From Niabella yanshanensis (GTDB lineage: Bacteria > Bacteroidota > Bacteroidia > Chitinophagales > Chitinophagaceae), in assembly GCF_034424215.1 (NCBI RefSeq), contig NZ_CP139960.1, positions 2,418,001-2,482,000 on the forward strand: a stretch of DNA of 64,000 nt. Reading direction: 5' to 3'. The first letter of the stretch is position 1; each line of letters begins with the position of its first letter. Of the stretch, positions 49,047-59,219 are shown piece by piece. The position numbers and the translations under genes are program-made. The notes beneath the pieces are model-generated. The model was not told the origin of the DNA, made no database searches, and saw nothing but the letters and a program-made list of their open reading frames with translations.

Positions 49047-50021
49047 TTATTTCAGGTCGCTTTTCTTCAACGATGGCAACATGGCAAACTGTTGATTCTT
49101 TGTATCGAGTATCAAAACATGATGTAAAAACAATTTATTCCCCGTCATACCGCCTATCCCGGCTTTTAACATGCGCTCCACCTGTGAGGTACTGGAGCCT
49201 TCTATATAAGTTACAGACTGCAGGGAAAGCTTCGTATTGGCTATATTGATACTGGCCGAAGATGCATAGGTATTTGCGGTTAAAGTTCTGTCCCACGATT
49301 TCACCTGATGTTGCGCTGGTTTTGCTCCGGTTGTGGCCAGTTGCAAACAAGTGACTTTGTTAGTGAGCAGTTCAAACATACTGGAACCCGTATCAAAAAA
49401 CAAGAGGGTTTCTTTCCCATTGATGATTGCCGGTAACAATACACTGTTATTAACATAAGTAAAATTTGAAAAAGATCGCTTTTGTTTTAGCTCCCGGGAT
49501 ACGGTTGGTAAAATATGTATCTTCTTACCCGGGTAATCAAGCGCTACACCCCTATGATCTATCAGGTCGGCCCCAATGGTTCCGATTATTTCTCTACCCT
49601 CCTTCCAATCGATAACGGAGCTATCAAATTGTTTTACCAGTATTTCATGGGCTAGAACCGGTGTTCCATCTACCCAAAAATGATACGCACTGATCCTGCT
49701 GCCCTTATCTATCAAAGGGATTGCGCCGGGGTATTTAGCCCGGATGGCATCGAGTTTATTTTTATAAAAAAGCGAAGAAGGCGCGCCCAGGTCGAATTGC
49801 ATATAAAAAGTACGGGGACAGTCTTTTAGTTTTACCGGGATGACCATAGCTGCATGGGCTTCCCATTTAGATAGAACGGAATCGCCCTGCCACTCAAAAG
49901 AAATAACAGATTTTTTCAAAGGCAATACTAATGGGGTAACAGCTGCCGGTTGGGCTAAAAGGCCGTTGACAGGAAAAACAAAAAAAGAGATAGCGATGAG
50001 TAGTGTGCTTAAAAACTTCAT
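49047..50021 (-). CDS. Exported retropepsin-like aspartic protease-like protein
   Basis: 324 aa from the ATG at 50021, the start of a signal peptide (MKFLSTLLIAISFFVFPVNG). Two retropepsin-like half-sites appear: FYMQFDLGAPSSLFY near residue 80 and LLFFDTGSSMFELLT near residue 210, the second with the canonical D-T-G. IGADLIDHRGVALDYPGKKI follows the family pattern. In the first half-site the loop is DLG, so catalysis there may be lost (inference). Substrate unknown. Confidence 0.8.
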   Translation of the reverse strand: MKFLSTLLIAISFFVFPVNGLLAQPAAVTPLVLPLKKSVISFEWQGDSVLSKWEAHAAMVIPVKLKDCPRTFYMQFDLGAPSSLFYKNKLDAIRAKYPGAIPLIDKGSRISAYHFWVDGTPVLAHEILVKQFDSSVIDWKEGREIIGTIGADLIDHRGVALDYPGKKIHILPTVSRELKQKRSFSNFTYVNNSVLLPAIINGKETLLFFDTGSSMFELLTNKVTCLQLATTGAKPAQHQVKSWDRTLTANTYASSASINIANTKLSLQSVTYIEGSSTSQVERMLKAGIGGMTGNKLFLHHVLILDTKNQQFAMLPSLKKSDLK

Positions 50022-50115
50022 TATAGCGGGTATCATTTTTTACATGCAAACCTAACATGAAGTGATGGGCATTAGCCCGGCATTTACCCGACGTTTGCCC
50101 GACGTTAAATGATAA

Positions 50116-50821: not shown

Positions 50822-50877
50822 TTGTATAGTCCGTACATCGTACACCCTTCATCGAACATCGCACATTCCTAATCCTT
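50822..50877. repeat. Heptad repeat array (8 units) at the 3' end of the histidine kinase gene
   Basis: Units in register from 50822, e.g. GTCCGTA, CATCGTA, CATCGAA, CATCGCA and CATTCCT. It covers the stop codon (50869-50871) of the histidine kinase gene. In a shifted register the ACATCGT core matches the array at 21043. Confidence 0.85.
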
Positions 50878-51915
50878 CTTCGCTCTTAAAGTAAACCCGA
50901 TGGTGGTACCGACATCCTGTGTGCTGCGGATATGTATCGTTTGGTTATGAGCCTCGATAATATGTTTGCAAATGGCTAACCCGAGGCCGCTGCCGGTGGC
51001 ATCCATACTGCGACCGATATCCGTTCTGTAAAACCGTTCAAATATGCGTGGGAGGTTCTTTTCAGCAATGCCAACACCATCATCACTGATCTCGATCAGA
51101 ATCCGTTTATCATCGGTTCGATAAATACCAGCTTTTATAGACCCGTTGTGCTTACCATATTTAATGGCATTTTCAAAAAGATTTAAAACGATCTGCCGTA
51201 TTTTTTCTTTGTCGGCATGTACCACTATCGGAGCCTCACACCCCTTTTTTATACTAAACCGAATGCTCTTAGGTTCTGCTTTAATAGAAATGCTTTCGAA
51301 GGTATCTTTGAGCAAATCCTGGATCACGAAATTGGTTTTTACCAATACGAGCTCGCCGCGCTCCAGGCTGGAAATTTCATCCAGATCAGCCAGCAGGTTG
51401 GTAAGGCGATCTACATTCCTTGCGGTCTTCTCTAAAAATTTTCTGCGCAGGGCCGGGTTCTCCGGCTCATCCTGTAGCAAGGTATCTACGTAACTTTGTA
51501 TGGTGAAGATGGGCGTTTTGAATTCGTGCGATAGGTTCTGCAGAAATTCGCGGCGAAACTGTTCATTGGCTTTTAATTGCTCTACCTGTTTTTGATTCTC
51601 CTGCGCCCAGGCTTCTACGTCTTCTGTAACCTCTCCTATACTTTTCTTCGGTAAAATATATTTATAATAGGTTTCTTCCCGTTTGGTAGCTTTTGTTTGA
51701 TAAATAAACTTATAGATCAGCTTTATCTTACGGTAAATAAAGTTATCCAGCACAAAGGATATCAGCACATATGCCCCGGTAAGTAGTATCACAAAAGAGA
51801 TAACTGCAAATAACCAGCGCTTTTCTACCGCGTACAGTAAAATACTTACCGGCACTGCCAGGGCCAGCGCCGTGTAAAAAGATAATTGCTTCGGTGACAG
51901 ATTCTTTGGGTTCAT
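50869..51915 (-). CDS. Membrane sensor histidine kinase (PhoR-like)
   Basis: 348 aa. Two membrane segments near the N-terminus (residues ~12-55) with almost no periplasmic loop, a linker helix, then the dimerisation domain with the phospho-accepting His in FLQNLSHEFKTPIFTIQSYVD near residue 131. The ATPase has N box FENAIKYGKHNG, G1 ISDDGVGIAEKNLPRIFERFYR and G2 GSGLGLAICKHIIEAH. With the response regulator 27 bp upstream it forms a two-component pair; the very small extracellular loop suggests membrane or cytoplasmic signals. Confidence 0.93.
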   Translation of the reverse strand: MNPKNLSPKQLSFYTALALAVPVSILLYAVEKRWLFAVISFVILLTGAYVLISFVLDNFIYRKIKLIYKFIYQTKATKREETYYKYILPKKSIGEVTEDVEAWAQENQKQVEQLKANEQFRREFLQNLSHEFKTPIFTIQSYVDTLLQDEPENPALRRKFLEKTARNVDRLTNLLADLDEISSLERGELVLVKTNFVIQDLLKDTFESISIKAEPKSIRFSIKKGCEAPIVVHADKEKIRQIVLNLFENAIKYGKHNGSIKAGIYRTDDKRILIEISDDGVGIAEKNLPRIFERFYRTDIGRSMDATGSGLGLAICKHIIEAHNQTIHIRSTQDVGTTIGFTLRAKKD

Positions 51916-51942: not shown

Positions 51943-52617
51943 TTAAATTTCAAACTTATAGCCCACTCCCTTCACAGTAGTGATACAATCCATATCCAGT
52001 TTCTGGCGTATTTTACGTATGTGAACATCAATGGTTCGGTCGCCTACGATCACGTCGTTACCCCAAATCGCATTTAATATCTCGTTTCTTAAAAATACAC
52101 GTCCAGGCTTGAGGGCCAGCAGGTATAGCAATTCAAATTCTTTTTTGGCGAGTACAATTTCCTTGTCTTCTATCTGAACCAGGAATTTTTCAGGGTCGAT
52201 GCTGATATTACCTACTTTCACCGCTTTTGAGTGGTCCTTTTGCACACGCCTCAAAAGTGCCGCAACCCTGCTCAACAATACTTTAGGACTTACCGGTTTG
52301 CTTACATAGTCGTCAGCACCTGTTTCCAAACCGCGCACCTGGGTCACTTCGTCGTTTAAGGCGGTTAAAAACATAATCAGTGTGTCCTTAAAAGCCGTTT
52401 GTCCGCGTAACACCTGGCAAACCTGAACACCGGTTTTTTTGGGCATCATCATATCCAATATTATCAAATTGGGTTTATGCTGATAAGCTTTGTCTATTGC
52501 CTCATCACCATCTTTTGCCGTGATTACTGTATATCCCTCTTTTTCAAGATTATAGGACAGGATTTCTAAAATGTCTGGCTCATCATCAGCAATTAGAATT
52601 TTATAGCCTTTCTCCAT
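51943..52617 (-). CDS. PhoB/OmpR-family response regulator
   Basis: 224 aa. The receiver has the acidic pocket DDEPDILE, phospho-acceptor Asp55 in LIILDMMMPKKTG, and the Lys in VSKPVSPKVL. The C-terminal winged helix is OmpR/PhoB-type (ILNAIWGNDVIVGDRTIDVHIRKIRQKL). It partners the kinase gene 27 bp downstream. The -7 box TACGTTTG (minus strand) is at 52636-52643. Confidence 0.95.
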   Translation of the reverse strand: MEKGYKILIADDEPDILEILSYNLEKEGYTVITAKDGDEAIDKAYQHKPNLIILDMMMPKKTGVQVCQVLRGQTAFKDTLIMFLTALNDEVTQVRGLETGADDYVSKPVSPKVLLSRVAALLRRVQKDHSKAVKVGNISIDPEKFLVQIEDKEIVLAKKEFELLYLLALKPGRVFLRNEILNAIWGNDVIVGDRTIDVHIRKIRQKLDMDCITTVKGVGYKFEI

Positions 52618-52635: not shown

Positions 52636-52643
52636 CAAACGTA
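52636..52643 (-). promoter_or_regulatory. -7 promoter element of the response regulator gene
   Basis: The minus strand reads TACGTTTG, 18 bp before the ATG at 52617. Confidence 0.6.
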
Positions 52644-52803
52644 ACAGTAATTTGTTTTATACGGAAATAACCGGCTTTTGTTAAGCGTATCTTAATATAA
52701 AGATAATATAGTAACGGCGACCATCGGGTTGCTCAATGAAGTTAAATATGGCAAAACCGGCTCAATTATTGCTGCAAACTGGTTGATTTTTTATAAATAC
52801 CAA

Positions 52804-52811
52804 TAAATTTG
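52804..52811 (+). promoter_or_regulatory. -7 promoter element of the 753-aa gene
   Basis: TAAATTTG, an exact match, 18 nt before the ATG at 52830. A TTG in GGTTGATT lies about 20 bp upstream as a candidate -33 element. Confidence 0.6.
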
Positions 52812-52829
52812 CTGTTACCTTATCATACT

Positions 52830-55091
52830 ATGAATTCTTTATTGATAACGATCCTGAGAAGCATGTTACCCTTTATGGCATTGCTGCTTTTCACGGTTCA
52901 TGCCGATGCCCAGAGACGAAAAAAAAAGAAACAGGTAATAGCGCCTGTGGTCGTTGTTGATACCATACCGGCTTATAAAATTGCCATCAACAGGCAGATC
53001 ATGCATGAAAAAGTAGAGAAAGAGCAGGCTTCGCTACTTTCTATTGATGGCAAGGCCGATAAAATTTTAACTATTTCGGGCGATAAACAGTTAAATGAAG
53101 CAGTGACTGATGCAGCTACCAAAAGAGTTGACTGGCTTCAATACGAGATAGAAACCAATCCCTCTATCGATGCCCGCTTAAAAGCTAATTACCTTGACGG
53201 ATTAGCTACTATTCTTAAGTATGTTAAAACTTATAGTCGCAGCAGGCAATCAGCCCTTAATTACCTGCCACAGGTTATTGCCACCTATAAGCAACTCATT
53301 GAAGCTAACACAGCACAAAAATCCATCGCGCCCATTATTCAGCCTCTTTCATTTGAAATAGCCAATGCAGCGCTTCAACCCGAAGTGTTTAAAGACAATG
53401 CCGGTTATAACGACGTGAGGGACCAAATGATCCTTAAAACGGCTGACCGCTACCCCGAAAAAGCATTTTCCGCCCTGAAAGCATATCCCGAATCTCCGGT
53501 AGCAGATAGCCTCATCAGAGCCATAGGGCACAAATATCCTTACCTGGTTTACGATTACGCACAGGCCAACAATAAATTCAGCTACCGTATTCAGAATATA
53601 GAAGATGACTCCCTGATCGTACATATCGTAGCAATGGCCCGTAATCCTAATAAAAGCGGGCAGTTCTATTTTCCTTTCCTTGATAATATTGTGAAAGGGA
53701 AAATAACCATGGAAGATATTGACAAGGCTAAAACTGATCCTGTAAGATATTTCCGGCTGCTGGTACAAACACAAATTGATTATACACAGCGCGCATTAAA
53801 TGGCGATACAGCAATGGGACATACCGCCCTTTTAAAAAAGCTGGAGCAGAAAGCGAAAGATGATTTTGTAGCAAAAATTAATGGGTTGCACGAAATGTCG
53901 GACGGCGTTCGTTTCCGATGCCTGCAGCCTTTAACGGCCGAGGAGCTGTACTATGTAGCGGTGCTCACTAACGGCCTTATTTATACCAGCAGCTATACCA
54001 GTGGCGTTTACCCGTTGATGATGCGCAAGGCCAATCAAAAAGGAGACGAATTACTGAAAAAGATCAACTTCGACCATTACCGCAAATTTTTGAGCCAGGC
54101 GGCATCTTATAACACTTTAAAGAATTTCCTGGGCAGCTTCTCAAACAATACAGATGCTACAGACCTGATGAAGGCATTTGTAACAGGGCTCGAAAAAAGC
54201 AACGGCCTGGAAGATGGTGTGGATGTTGCCGACTCTTACGCCAGCATTTCAGAAACTTTGCCGGACCTGGCCAAAGGGATGCTTGAAAACGTGAAAGTAA
54301 ACCTGGACCGAAATCATAGCGAAAACAATGAAAAGGGTACCGCCATCTATGACATATTGTATAACCTGTTTTTGTCAGCAGATTCATCTAACCATATAGA
54401 CCTGACGAGTAAACTTGAAATACCTCCTGTATATAATGTTCCGTTCTCCACCCTTACTAATGAAAATGGAGAAGTGATTTCACAGGTATTCTTTTATGGG
54501 GATCAGGATGGCCGCAATATATTCAACGGATTCCTGAATATGTTTGGTGGCGGTAACTGGAAAGTAGACGGCAGCAATAAACAGTGGGTGGTGATTAAAT
54601 CTACCAAAGGCAAACCGGTATCTATTTATGCTAATCGCCCGCTGGATGAAAACAAAGGGCTGGATGATAAAGCGCAAAGAGCCCTGAATGATTACCTGGA
54701 TGAGCACAATTTGCATCCTACTGTTACCATCCATCGGGGTCATAGCTATTATGCCGAAGCCACTATTGGCCATATGGCTCCAACTTCTAAAATTGTATTT
54801 ATGGGATCCTGCGGTGGTTTTAACCTGATCGATTCCATTCTGAAAAAATCAGAAGATGCTCATATCATAGCTTCCAAACAAATCGGTCGAACTTCCATCA
54901 ATAAACCTTTCTTTTACTTATTGACTGAGAAACTGCGTACCGGCAAGGATATTGACTGGATCCCTTTCTGGAGAGAGTTTAAAGGAAGGGCTAACGTAGC
55001 CGGCTTTGAAGACTATATTCCACCTTACAAAAATCTCGGCGCTATTTTCATAAAAGCCTACAAAAAAGAAACCGGTGAGACTGATGTATAA
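52830..55091 (+). CDS. Large exported protein with a C-terminal caspase-like (clan CD) domain, candidate
   Basis: 753 aa from the ATG at 52830 (a TTG seven codons earlier is in frame). The signal peptide ends near VHADAQ and is followed by a Lys/Arg-rich stretch. Residues ~50-520 are helical with no domain I can name. The last ~200 residues alternate strands and helices. After VFFYGDQDGRNIFNGF come TVTIHRGHSYY with His638 and KIVFMGSCGGFNLI with Cys661, then IIASKQIGRT and FFYLLTEKL. The strand-His and strand-Cys order, 23 residues apart, is that of caspase/CHAT/gingipain peptidases. The gene is transcribed alone and ends at a perfect terminator. Confidence 0.85.
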   Translation: MNSLLITILRSMLPFMALLLFTVHADAQRRKKKKQVIAPVVVVDTIPAYKIAINRQIMHEKVEKEQASLLSIDGKADKILTISGDKQLNEAVTDAATKRVDWLQYEIETNPSIDARLKANYLDGLATILKYVKTYSRSRQSALNYLPQVIATYKQLIEANTAQKSIAPIIQPLSFEIANAALQPEVFKDNAGYNDVRDQMILKTADRYPEKAFSALKAYPESPVADSLIRAIGHKYPYLVYDYAQANNKFSYRIQNIEDDSLIVHIVAMARNPNKSGQFYFPFLDNIVKGKITMEDIDKAKTDPVRYFRLLVQTQIDYTQRALNGDTAMGHTALLKKLEQKAKDDFVAKINGLHEMSDGVRFRCLQPLTAEELYYVAVLTNGLIYTSSYTSGVYPLMMRKANQKGDELLKKINFDHYRKFLSQAASYNTLKNFLGSFSNNTDATDLMKAFVTGLEKSNGLEDGVDVADSYASISETLPDLAKGMLENVKVNLDRNHSENNEKGTAIYDILYNLFLSADSSNHIDLTSKLEIPPVYNVPFSTLTNENGEVISQVFFYGDQDGRNIFNGFLNMFGGGNWKVDGSNKQWVVIKSTKGKPVSIYANRPLDENKGLDDKAQRALNDYLDEHNLHPTVTIHRGHSYYAEATIGHMAPTSKIVFMGSCGGFNLIDSILKKSEDAHIIASKQIGRTSINKPFFYLLTEKLRTGKDIDWIPFWREFKGRANVAGFEDYIPPYKNLGAIFIKAYKKETGETDV

Positions 55092-55094
55092 AAG

Positions 55095-55132
55095 AAAGAA
55101 GCTGTTTCCTTATTCGAAACAGCTTCTTTTTT
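55095..55132 (+). terminator. Terminator of the 753-aa gene
   Basis: Perfect 14-bp stem AAAGAAGCTGTTTC/GAAACAGCTTCTTT with a 7-nt loop and T6. Confidence 0.95.
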
Positions 55133-55684: not shown

Positions 55685-56659
55685 TTATTGCTGCTGCTGT
55701 TGCTGCATCTGCTCCATATAAAAACGGTAAGAGTTTGTTTTGGTAGACGGAACCGGCTTATCTGATTTATAACTGAAAGCAGGCTGACTCACCGTTTCTT
55801 CAATAGGAACAACCGTTCTGTTATCAATTGAAACCAATACTTCCAATACGTGATGTGAAGAACCTTTGTAAGTGCCTTTTACGGGTGTTACGTCCGAAAA
55901 GTTTCTTCCTACGGCTAACCTGATATGCCGGTCGCTTGCAATGCAATTATTAGTAGGATCTAAACCGATCCATCCATAATCAGGTAAATAAGCTTCTACC
56001 CAGGCATGCGTGGCTCCCTCGCCTCTGAACTCGTGATTCTTGGGGCAGATATAGCCACTGACATAGCGTGCCGGAACCCCTACCCTTCTTAACATCAATA
56101 ATAAAACATGAGCAAAATCCTGGCATACGCCCGCTTTCAATTTCCATATTTCGTCCACCTTGGTTTCTACACTGGTAATCCCTTGTTTATACTCGAAGTT
56201 TTTATAAATAAACTCAGAGAATCTTTGCGCATTTTCAAAAGGAGTTTTGCTACTATCAAACGTTGCTTCTAAAAACAATTGGAGCTCGTCGGCGCTTTCA
56301 AAAGCCTCCTGCTGCATAAAATCGATATAGGGGAACTGTTCCTGCATCGTTAATAAACGTTGCCACTGATCACCGGCAGGTAACTCATTTTGTGGCGCCT
56401 GAATCTCCTGGGTCACCACCTCTGCTTCGGACGAGATCAATAATTCGGTATGAGGTTCCACGATAGAAAACATACCCAGTGTGTTACCAAAATAGTCTAC
56501 AAAAATTTCTACGCCGGGATTTTTGGTAATAGTAATTTTATGACTTACCAGGTTCTGCAGGGCATCCTGTATAGGATACAACATGATCTGGTTGGTGCAT
56601 TCAACTGCCGGACTACTATAAGAATAGCGTGTAATATGTTTGATCTTAAATGATGGCAT
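55685..56659 (-). CDS. Transglutaminase-like protein with bacterial N-terminal domain
   Basis: 324 aa. N-terminal beta domain (FKIKHITRYSYSSPAVECTNQIMLYP), then the transglutaminase core: catalytic Cys in KAGVCQDFAHVLLLMLRRVGVPARYVSGYI near residue 178, His in ATHAWVEAYLPDYGWIGLDPTNN near residue 218, and the Asp after it. Downstream in the cluster after the alpha-E and ATP-grasp genes. The C-terminus ends in a poly-Gln tract (seven of the last eight residues; CAG/CAA repeats), possibly a replication-slippage site. It would cleave or crosslink amides in a product of the neighbouring ATP-grasp (inference). Confidence 0.92.
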   Translation of the reverse strand: MPSFKIKHITRYSYSSPAVECTNQIMLYPIQDALQNLVSHKITITKNPGVEIFVDYFGNTLGMFSIVEPHTELLISSEAEVVTQEIQAPQNELPAGDQWQRLLTMQEQFPYIDFMQQEAFESADELQLFLEATFDSSKTPFENAQRFSEFIYKNFEYKQGITSVETKVDEIWKLKAGVCQDFAHVLLLMLRRVGVPARYVSGYICPKNHEFRGEGATHAWVEAYLPDYGWIGLDPTNNCIASDRHIRLAVGRNFSDVTPVKGTYKGSSHHVLEVLVSIDNRTVVPIEETVSQPAFSYKSDKPVPSTKTNSYRFYMEQMQQQQQQ

Positions 56660-56746
56660 CTGTAATATTTGAAAGGTTTGGGTACCGCAATGCTACTATC
56701 AAAATTCTATTCAGTCAAAATTGAAGGTTAAGCAGGTAATGCAGGA

Positions 56747-57682
56747 TTAACTATACCCGAAATAATGCTTATTAAATGCACGGGCTATATTATGTAAATC
56801 AGCACGGGTTTGGGCCAGCAGACTCCTGATACTCTGACCGTCTTTCAGATCGCAGCTACTGTACTTCAGATTATTTAAGCCTTTGCCGATCAGGAAGTCC
56901 ACATTCTCGTAGCTTTCCGGTATACTTTGTCCATACAGCCTTTTAAAATAGCGACTGATATGCGAAGTGCAGTATAAAATGGAGTGTACAAAATCTTCGT
57001 CGTATAATATCTGTTTGATAATGGTATCTGCTTCTACAATACCGCGGGATGACTTTAAGTAGGCCTCATACCCGGAAAGCGAATACAGGAGGTATCTCAG
57101 CGAGGGTGTTGCAGTTTCGTGTGCCAGATCATAGCCGATCTCTTTCAATTTAATATCTGTTACATCTGTTGTAATAATCGCTCTTTCCACATAAAGCCCT
57201 ACATTTAAGAAATTGTAGGCTTCACCACGCGACATGGTGACATTAATCGTTCCATACAAAAAAAGCCCATGTTTAATCAATGCATCCAAAGCTGTTATAG
57301 GATCGCCATATCTAATAGTACGTTGAATACCGGCTTCCCTGATCAGTAAATAATACCCATTCAGTGCATGCCACATCTCCTTGGTGATATGATCCTGTAC
57401 TGCTTTGGCATTTTCCCGCGCGCGGGTAATATTATTAATGAGCGATGCATCGTTATCCCGCTCCAGCATCACATAGTTTAATACCGCACGTGCATTATTT
57501 TGAACAGGCTCTATCTCAGCAGCATCCAGGTATCCATAAGTTTGCAATACCGTCTTCCAATTGTATGCCTTCATTTCATCCTGAGATGCGATATAATTGG
57601 TTCGCAATACTCTCAGTAACCCATTGGTTCTTTCCATATAGCGCGCCAACCAAAACACAGATTCTGCAACACGACTTAACAT
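56747..57682 (-). CDS. Alpha-E domain protein (DUF403)
   Basis: 311 aa, mostly helical. The N-terminus MLSRVAESVFWLARYMERTNGLLRVLRTNY and the PSLRYLLYSLSGYEAYLKSSRG segment are diagnostic of the alpha-E family. Function unknown; it is always found with circularly permuted ATP-grasp and transglutaminase genes, as here, and is thought to help make or process amide-linked peptides. A heptad array starts directly upstream of its ATG. Confidence 0.9.
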   Translation of the reverse strand: MLSRVAESVFWLARYMERTNGLLRVLRTNYIASQDEMKAYNWKTVLQTYGYLDAAEIEPVQNNARAVLNYVMLERDNDASLINNITRARENAKAVQDHITKEMWHALNGYYLLIREAGIQRTIRYGDPITALDALIKHGLFLYGTINVTMSRGEAYNFLNVGLYVERAIITTDVTDIKLKEIGYDLAHETATPSLRYLLYSLSGYEAYLKSSRGIVEADTIIKQILYDEDFVHSILYCTSHISRYFKRLYGQSIPESYENVDFLIGKGLNNLKYSSCDLKDGQSIRSLLAQTRADLHNIARAFNKHYFGYS

Positions 57683-57724
57683 CTTAAATTCTAAATTTTA
57701 AACTCTAAATATTAAACTTCAAAT
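57683..57724. repeat. Heptad repeat array (6 units) before the alpha-E gene
   Basis: Units CTTAAAT, TCTAAAT, TTTAAAC, TCTAAAT, ATTAAAC, TTCAAAT in exact register, starting at the base next to the alpha-E start codon. Confidence 0.88.
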
Positions 57725-57735
57725 GACCATTCTCC

Positions 57736-57759
57736 CGGTCAACCGATCAACAGTAAACC
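57736..57759. repeat. Octad array (3 units) next to the ATP-grasp gene end
   Basis: CGGTCAAC, CGATCAAC, AGTAAACC in 8-bp register, directly after the heptad array and 11 bp before the ATP-grasp stop codon. Confidence 0.5.
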
Positions 57760-57770
57760 ATTCATCCGCT

Positions 57771-59219
57771 CTAATCTCCCAGCACCCAGGTATCCTTACT
57801 ACCCCCACCCTGAGAAGAGTTCACTACCAGCGATCCCTCTCTCAGGGCAACGCGTGTTAACCCGCCGGGAACGATATTGATCCCATCCGGCCCATATAGC
57901 GCGAAAGGTCTCAGGTCCACTCTCCTTGGCTGCAGCTTACCATCGATATAGCAGGGCGATGAAGACAAATTGATAATGGGTTGGGCAATAAAATTCCTGG
58001 GATCCTCCAATATAGCTTTTTTGTATTCCTCCATTTCTTCCTCAGTAGCTTTATTTCCCATCAGCATCCCATAGCCACCTGATTCGTTCGTTTTCTTAAT
58101 CACCATATTACCCATATTAGCAAAAACCATCGAACGGTTCTCCGGTACATTTAACTCATAAGTAGGTACATTTTTGAGGATCGGCTCCTCGTTCAGGTAA
58201 TAGCGTATCATATCCGGCACATAAGAATAAACCGCCTTATCGTCGGCCACGCCATTACCCATTGCATTTACAATAGCCACATTCCCTTTCCGGTAAGCCC
58301 AGTAAATACCCGGTACGCCTAATATGCTGTCCGGACGAAAGGTAAGCGGGTCAATAAATTCATCGTCTACCCGGCGATAAATAACATCTACCTTTTGTAA
58401 CCCACTAGTGGTTTTCATGTACACATGATGGTTCTCCACCACTAAATCCCGTCCTTCCACCAATTCAATACCCATCAGGCGTGCCAATGTCGTATGCTCA
58501 AAATAAGCCGAATTGTACACGCCTGGGGTTAGTAAAACAACGGTGGGGTTACTGGTTTGCCGGTTAGCCAGGCCCAGCAAATTCTTCAGCAATAAGGAGG
58601 GGTACTCTATTACCCGGCGTACATTATTGCTGGGTATTAAATCAGGAAATATTCTGAAAGTAATGCTTCGGTTCTCCAGCATATAAGATACACCCGAAGG
58701 TGTTCTTAAATTGTCCTCCAATACATAAAAACTACCATCCGCATCCCTGATCAGGTCGATACCCGATATATGAGAATAGATATCGAAAGGCACATTTACG
58801 TTCATCATTTCCCTCAGGAACAGAGGGCAGGAATAAATGAGCTTAGCCGGAACAATTCCATCTTTTATGATAAACTGCTGATGGTATACATCTTTCAGGA
58901 AGATATTTAATGCCCTGAGCCGCTGCTTTACACCTGCCTCAATAATGGCCCACTCTTTGGCTTCTATGATACGCGGGATAATATCGAAAGGAAATATTTT
59001 CTCCACACCTTCGTTATCGCTGTACACGGTAAAGGTAATTCCCTGCGTCATAAAGAGTTTCTTGGCCAGCTCATCCTTGTTACCCATTTCTTCAGCAGAA
59101 AGTCCCTCCAGTGTTTTAACCAGTTGAAGATAACTCTCCCTAACGCCAGTCTGGCTCATGAGCTCATCCCAAACCTTGGATTGAGTATGATAAGATTCTA
59201 ATATTTTCGGTAGGGTCAT
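57771..59219 (-). CDS. Circularly permuted type-2 ATP-grasp protein
   Basis: 482 aa. Features of the circularly permuted ATP-grasp group: SGIDLIRDADGSFYVLEDNLRTPSGVSYMLENR near residue 145, the Lys-Gly-rich VIKKTNESGGYGMLMG and DLRPFALYGPDGINIVPGGLTRVALREG near the end. It activates carboxylates with ATP to form amide bonds, probably making a small peptide acted on by the transglutaminase. First gene of the triad; alpha-E follows. Confidence 0.9.
   Translation of the reverse strand: MTLPKILESYHTQSKVWDELMSQTGVRESYLQLVKTLEGLSAEEMGNKDELAKKLFMTQGITFTVYSDNEGVEKIFPFDIIPRIIEAKEWAIIEAGVKQRLRALNIFLKDVYHQQFIIKDGIVPAKLIYSCPLFLREMMNVNVPFDIYSHISGIDLIRDADGSFYVLEDNLRTPSGVSYMLENRSITFRIFPDLIPSNNVRRVIEYPSLLLKNLLGLANRQTSNPTVVLLTPGVYNSAYFEHTTLARLMGIELVEGRDLVVENHHVYMKTTSGLQKVDVIYRRVDDEFIDPLTFRPDSILGVPGIYWAYRKGNVAIVNAMGNGVADDKAVYSYVPDMIRYYLNEEPILKNVPTYELNVPENRSMVFANMGNMVIKKTNESGGYGMLMGNKATEEEMEEYKKAILEDPRNFIAQPIINLSSSPCYIDGKLQPRRVDLRPFALYGPDGINIVPGGLTRVALREGSLVVNSSQGGGSKDTWVLGD

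Follow-up and report, generated by a model that had tools for sequence, protein, structure and literature searches.

The window analysed here is the whole 64,000-nucleotide stretch of Niabella yanshanensis DNA (NCBI RefSeq assembly GCF_034424215.1, contig NZ_CP139960.1, positions 2,418,001 to 2,482,000 of the forward strand), and coordinates are counted from its first letter. The locus under study consists of a gene for a 753-aa exported protein and a divergently transcribed two-component pair, with the features listed below; the basis of each assignment is given in parentheses where one was recorded.

50869..51915, minus strand: histidine kinase, N-terminus hydrophobic, periplasmic loop nearly absent (Pfam; hydropathy; conserved neighbour)
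51943..52617, minus strand: OmpR/PhoB-type response regulator, divergent neighbour (Pfam; conserved neighbour)
52636..52643, minus strand: TACGTTTG, the -7 element in the promoter of the response regulator
52681..52707, plus strand: candidate response-regulator box, TTAAG-N6-TTAAT-N6-ATAAT, three half-sites with an 11-bp period (sequence; homologous regions)
52783..52811, plus strand: Bacteroidota-type promoter of the caspase-fold CDS, TTG at 52783 and TAAATTTG at 52804-52811 (sequence)
52830..55091, plus strand: CDS of the 753-aa exported helical-solenoid/caspase-fold protein (ORF from ATG; 104 homologues)
52830..52910, plus strand: Sec/SPase I signal peptide, MNSLLITILRSMLPFMALLLFTVHADA then Q (sequence and homologue conservation)
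52986..54419, plus strand: all-helical solenoid, residues ~53-530 (AlphaFold2 model; conservation)
54465..55073, plus strand: caspase-like alpha/beta domain, residues ~546-748 (AlphaFold2 models of the whole protein and the domain; VIA-align)
54741..54743, plus strand: His638 codon, motif HRGHS; the residue follows strand 3 and is the putative catalytic His (invariant in 104/104)
54810..54812, plus strand: Cys661 codon, motif GSCGG; the residue follows strand 4 and is the putative nucleophile (invariant in 104/104)
55092..55132, plus strand: intrinsic terminator, 17-bp stem and T run, after the stop codon

ATG 52830 was preferred as the likely start because the longer alternative listed, TTG at 52809, falls within the promoter element TAAATTTG. 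An earlier note on this DNA had claimed an own promoter and a perfect terminator for the gene, and both were located, the former as the TTG and TAAATTTG pair and the latter as a 17-pair stem with a T run. TAnnTTTG was found in 102 of 127 homologous intergenic regions, a raw count taken without a shuffle control for this motif. The terminator is probably bidirectional, serving both the caspase-fold CDS and a RidA-like gene. Downstream, on the minus strand at 55685-59219, lie a gene for a transglutaminase-like protein and then two genes which resemble its usual partners, presumably alpha-E and circularly permuted ATP-grasp.

The protein carries a signal peptide, as the earlier note had claimed, which ends between ADA and Q; the N-terminus was hydrophobic in 96 of 98 homologues and an AxA-Q-type cleavage site was present in 72 of the 98, none of which had a further transmembrane segment. 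The site agrees with the Bacteroidetes Q-rule (PMC5837995). The C-terminal sorting domain of T9SS cargo was absent, the sequence stopping with the putative catalytic domain and giving no NCBIfam match. Export would proceed via Sec, with signal peptidase I leaving an N-terminal Gln. As the catalytic domain has no secretion tail behind it, the mature protein would be kept in the envelope, most likely in the periplasm.

Structure prediction with AlphaFold2 gave confident models of the whole protein (98 sequences; pLDDT 94.2, pTM 0.87) and of the C-terminal domain alone (122 sequences; pLDDT 95.4, pTM 0.92). The whole model agrees with the earlier description of a helical first ~500 residues and an alpha/beta last ~200. 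In the latter, a strand, a helix, a short strand with a hairpin, a helix and the strand leading to His are predicted, followed by a helix, the strand leading to Cys, a helix, a strand and helices. Within the solenoid, residues H354, R361, T386 and S387 were invariant. The first 500 residues had been called unrecognised. When the protein sequence was searched against Pfam, NCBIfam, PADLOC and the PDB, no significant match was returned; a Pfam ATP-synthase match (E 0.34) and PDB matches to designed helical repeats (E >= 0.026) were set aside as composition noise.

Single-sequence searches found the gene in 96 of 99 sampled Chitinophagaceae genomes. Across a phylum sample of 296 genomes it was present in 11, all Chitinophagaceae, with the same 11 recovered by profile search, and it was absent from all 285 sampled Bacteroidota genomes outside that family. 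Profile search within the order also detected it in sister families of Chitinophagaceae, where it usually occurs as a tandem pair, a long gene (about 1000-1150 aa) directly preceding and nearly overlapping a short one (about 710 aa). The long protein has a duplicated solenoid, seen as a second hit, N-terminal, with the profile's solenoid section (down to E 9e-23). A search of the 296 phylum genomes with the C-terminal domain yielded family members and two fragments only (E ~0.002-0.003, one with two internal stops), the latter taken as chance matches. A weak match in genome G477 (E 5e-5), from a further family within the order, covered the solenoid part only and was left out of the counts. Among named records the closest to the window were from Niabella, at protein identities of up to 90%. 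The window genome also encodes a paralogue of 55% identity 140 kb away (G000:C1:2611040-2613151; loci L002/L099), which adjoins an ABC transporter gene here and in related genomes.

The earlier note had pointed to GHS (His638) and GSCGG (Cys661), each after a strand, and had proposed checking whether the two residues are invariant. Both motifs are where it placed them, and H638 and C661 were invariant in 104 of 104 Chitinophagaceae homologues at identities down to about 21-25%, together with the nearby R636, G637, S639, G659 and G662. Their spacing was 23 residues in 97 of 98 homologues. In the sister families, the short proteins kept the equivalents of both residues in 17 of 17 cases; the long proteins kept Cys in 15 of 15 and His in 13 of 15, the other two carrying Leu or Tyr, so that the Cys661 equivalent was conserved in all 32. 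The two long paralogues with a replaced His (HRGLS and HRGYS, at loci L225 and L230) each adjoin an intact short paralogue and are possibly inactive, pseudo-enzyme partners. In clan CD proteases each residue of the dyad sits at the C-terminal end of one of two consecutive core strands (PMC4357240), and the positions of His638 and Cys661 in the AlphaFold2 models match this rule. His638 lies at the end of the strand at residues 632-636 and Cys661 lies just past the strand at 655-658 (strands numbered by element order). The canonical clan CD motif is His-Gly; here the invariant G637 precedes His638, and the pair is His-Ser where clan CD has His-Gly.

The proposed fold search against clan CD gave its best structural matches within that clan. 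With the whole model, VIA-align placed human separase first (9hm7, Z 10.7, rmsd 3.6 over 159 residues), with further matches to separase 5u1t (Z 9.0) and TPR-CHAT 7y85 (Z 8.2); with the domain alone, SAVED-CHAT 8tl0 came first (Z 9.9) and the C11 proteases 6nag (Z 8.7, 186 residues) and 6n9j (Z 8.5) were also found. Small GTPases were matched at Z 7-9.0. Foldseek returned no PDB match at E <= 0.001 for either the whole model or the domain, and GTPases headed its PDB and viral matches for the domain, all of them weak. By itself the comparison of predicted folds is suggestive of clan CD, and since Foldseek alone found nothing at that threshold the assignment rests on VIA-align together with the dyad. 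Could the C-terminal domain instead be small-GTPase-like, or of another Rossmann type? The first Foldseek matches and VIA-align scores of up to Z 9.0 speak for this; against it, GTPases aligned over about 125-153 residues versus 159-186 for separase, SAVED-CHAT and C11, strand 1 is followed by a conserved GDxDG and the P-loop GxxxxGK[ST] is absent, and an exported protein would not meet GTP. Clan CD was chosen because the P-loop is absent, the His-then-Cys dyad is invariant and an export signal is present, and we regard the GTPase-like alternative as very unlikely. The earlier note had named a predicted fold unlike caspase-hemoglobinase, or a non-conserved His/Cys, as grounds for rejecting its proposal; neither was observed.

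At the level of sequence, the protein stands apart from the named clan CD families. Pfam listed 25 families for the 122 members and CHAT (PF12770) was not one of them; hhalign against 17 CHAT domains gave a probability of 2.3%, aligning only the strand and Cys motif (MGSCG/LSACQ), with the Cys motif in the right place at no significance. The Peptidase C11 profile (PF03415) gave no match by Pfam or by hhalign with a small C11 set, the Pfam separase profile (Peptidase_C50) did not match the window protein, and PADLOC anti-phage defence models were likewise unmatched. Of the CHAT/gingipain-type clan CD likeness noted earlier, therefore, clan CD stands as the best structural fit, whereas membership in CHAT or the gingipains was rejected (no Pfam match; hhalign 2.3% against CHAT). 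Given the insignificant CHAT alignment, the protein is treated as its own family.

Its nearest architecture is that of separase or TPR-CHAT, a helical repeat joined to a protease domain, here in an exported protein. Separase (C50, clan CD) shares a long helical N-terminal part, a C-terminal caspase-like domain and a His followed at short distance by a Cys, a likeness of architecture and not of membership; separase is eukaryotic, intracellular and much longer, without detectable sequence similarity, while the window protein is bacterial and exported and has Gly-His-Ser in place of His-Gly. The TPR-CHAT protein Csx29 of Craspase, along with other CHAT proteins, offers a bacterial version of the helical-repeat and caspase-fold plan (Z 8.2). 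Csx29 acts with Cas7-11 on Csx30, its TPR part relaying activation to its CHAT domain (PMC10028731). The window protein differs in having neither a CHAT profile match nor a defence-family match. Clostripain-type C11 proteases (PF03415; Bacteroides 6n9j and 6nag) are secreted clan CD enzymes of Bacteroidota and gave the longest alignment (186 residues), but they have no helical solenoid and no profile match to the window protein. Gingipains (C25) are also exported clan CD proteases of Bacteroidota; they exit through the T9SS with a C-terminal domain, whereas in the window protein the catalytic domain is itself the C-terminus and no gingipain profile matched. Neither the fold class nor the joining of a helical repeat to a protease is new. 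The family itself is undescribed in the databases and literature searched, as are its export, the tandem of long and short genes and the link to a two-component system, and we know of no described group of exported helical-repeat caspase-fold proteins.

An orthologue of this response regulator adjoined the gene in 113 of 142 Chitinophagaceae loci and one of this kinase in 110 of the 142, counts that include some contigs fetched twice and are not fully independent. The pair was nearly always divergent from the gene and within 600 bp. In six sister-family genomes the best regulator orthologue was located: it adjoined the gene in five (G432, G394, G475, G450 and G490), in several of them on the same strand as the gene, and lay ~15 kb away in the sixth. 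Several sister-family genomes carry response regulator, kinase, long gene and short gene in that order on a single strand. In one Chitinophagaceae clade the gene has another location, often close to glyA, and the two-component pair is found in different parts of the genome. Three Chitinophagaceae genomes that lack the gene retain the kinase, and genomes outside the order that have no copy of the gene also carry kinase orthologues. The tie is thus strong, though not obligatory. We take RprXY as a candidate name for the adjacent pair; the kinase has one best orthologue in many Bacteroidia. Beyond the kinase, at 49047-50036 on the minus strand, the window encodes a 329-aa exported-looking protein with the pepsin-like half motifs FDLGAPSS and FFDTGSS and no Pfam match at E <= 0.001, which is possibly a divergent aspartic protease.

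The intergenic box resembles those of other OmpR/PhoB-type pairs in being a direct repeat with an 11-bp period. TTAAT-N6-TTAAT was present in 33 of 123 homologous intergenic regions, compared with 0.3 expected by shuffling, and the TTAAT pair occurred in none of the 123 at spacings of 4, 5, 7, 8 or 9. The box lies 56 bp from the response regulator -7 element in the window and mostly 55-57 bp from it across genera, while its distance to the caspase-fold gene promoter varies widely. On account of that variable distance it points to autoregulation of the regulator and not to control of the caspase-fold gene, for which a role as operator is unsupported. It looks like a PhoB-type autoregulatory site, and the 11-bp repeat is probably where the regulator acts on its own operon.

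We give about an even chance to the reading that the protein is a clan-CD-like, separase-like exported cysteine endopeptidase, absent from the databases searched, which acts in an envelope signalling circuit. His638 and Cys661 would form the catalytic dyad and cut a specific envelope protein. By analogy with separase and TPR-CHAT, the solenoid may serve as a scaffold on which a partner or substrate docks and through which the C-terminal domain is controlled. As part of the neighbouring two-component circuit, the protease would either execute the envelope response or exert feedback on it. Counting against this reading are the Foldseek result and the GTPase scores given above, the constant Gly-His-Ser with His lost in two of 15 long paralogues, the variable distance of the box from the promoter of the caspase-fold gene, the clade in which gene and kinase are apart, and the three genomes that have the kinase alone.

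Some of these points favour a caspase fold without proteolysis, that is, ligand binding, other Cys/His chemistry or a structural part of the envelope. The His-Ser replacement, the two His-less long paralogues and the further invariant residues of the solenoid fit such a protein; the full conservation of both dyad residues at a fixed spacing across 104 diverse homologues and the active proteases among its structural neighbours do not, and we consider it unlikely. Alternatively, the protein might be an accessory sensor of the kinase, its solenoid sensing an envelope signal and handing it on, with cleavage perhaps joining in the switch. The hydrophobic N-terminus and near-absent sensor loop of the kinase, as well as the one-strand order of all four genes in several sister-family genomes, are consistent with this, but the kinase occurs without the protein in three genomes and its orthologues outside the order are in genomes that lack it; we judge this role rather unlikely. 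The adjacency could also reflect a gene order that was simply inherited, without any functional connection, a view with an appreciable though less than even chance. It is favoured by the clade that keeps the gene elsewhere and by the placing of the box for the regulator's own promoter, and is opposed by the persistence of the adjacency, in two orientations, between families whose regulators share 52-57% identity, something that inertia rarely achieves.

Taken further, the endopeptidase reading would make site-specific cleavage of an envelope protein, outside the cytoplasm, a step of two-component signalling, long and short solenoid proteins working with a loop-poor kinase in a separase-like proteolytic circuit of the envelope; we offer this as an improbable proposal. 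The family itself is near-universal in Chitinophagaceae, Bacteroidota of soil and water, and bears the marks of a clan CD protease while having no name, Pfam model or function. If it is active, the bacterial envelope would become another site of regulated proteolysis of the separase/TPR-CHAT kind, a possibility for which the linked two-component system offers a direct genetic handle.
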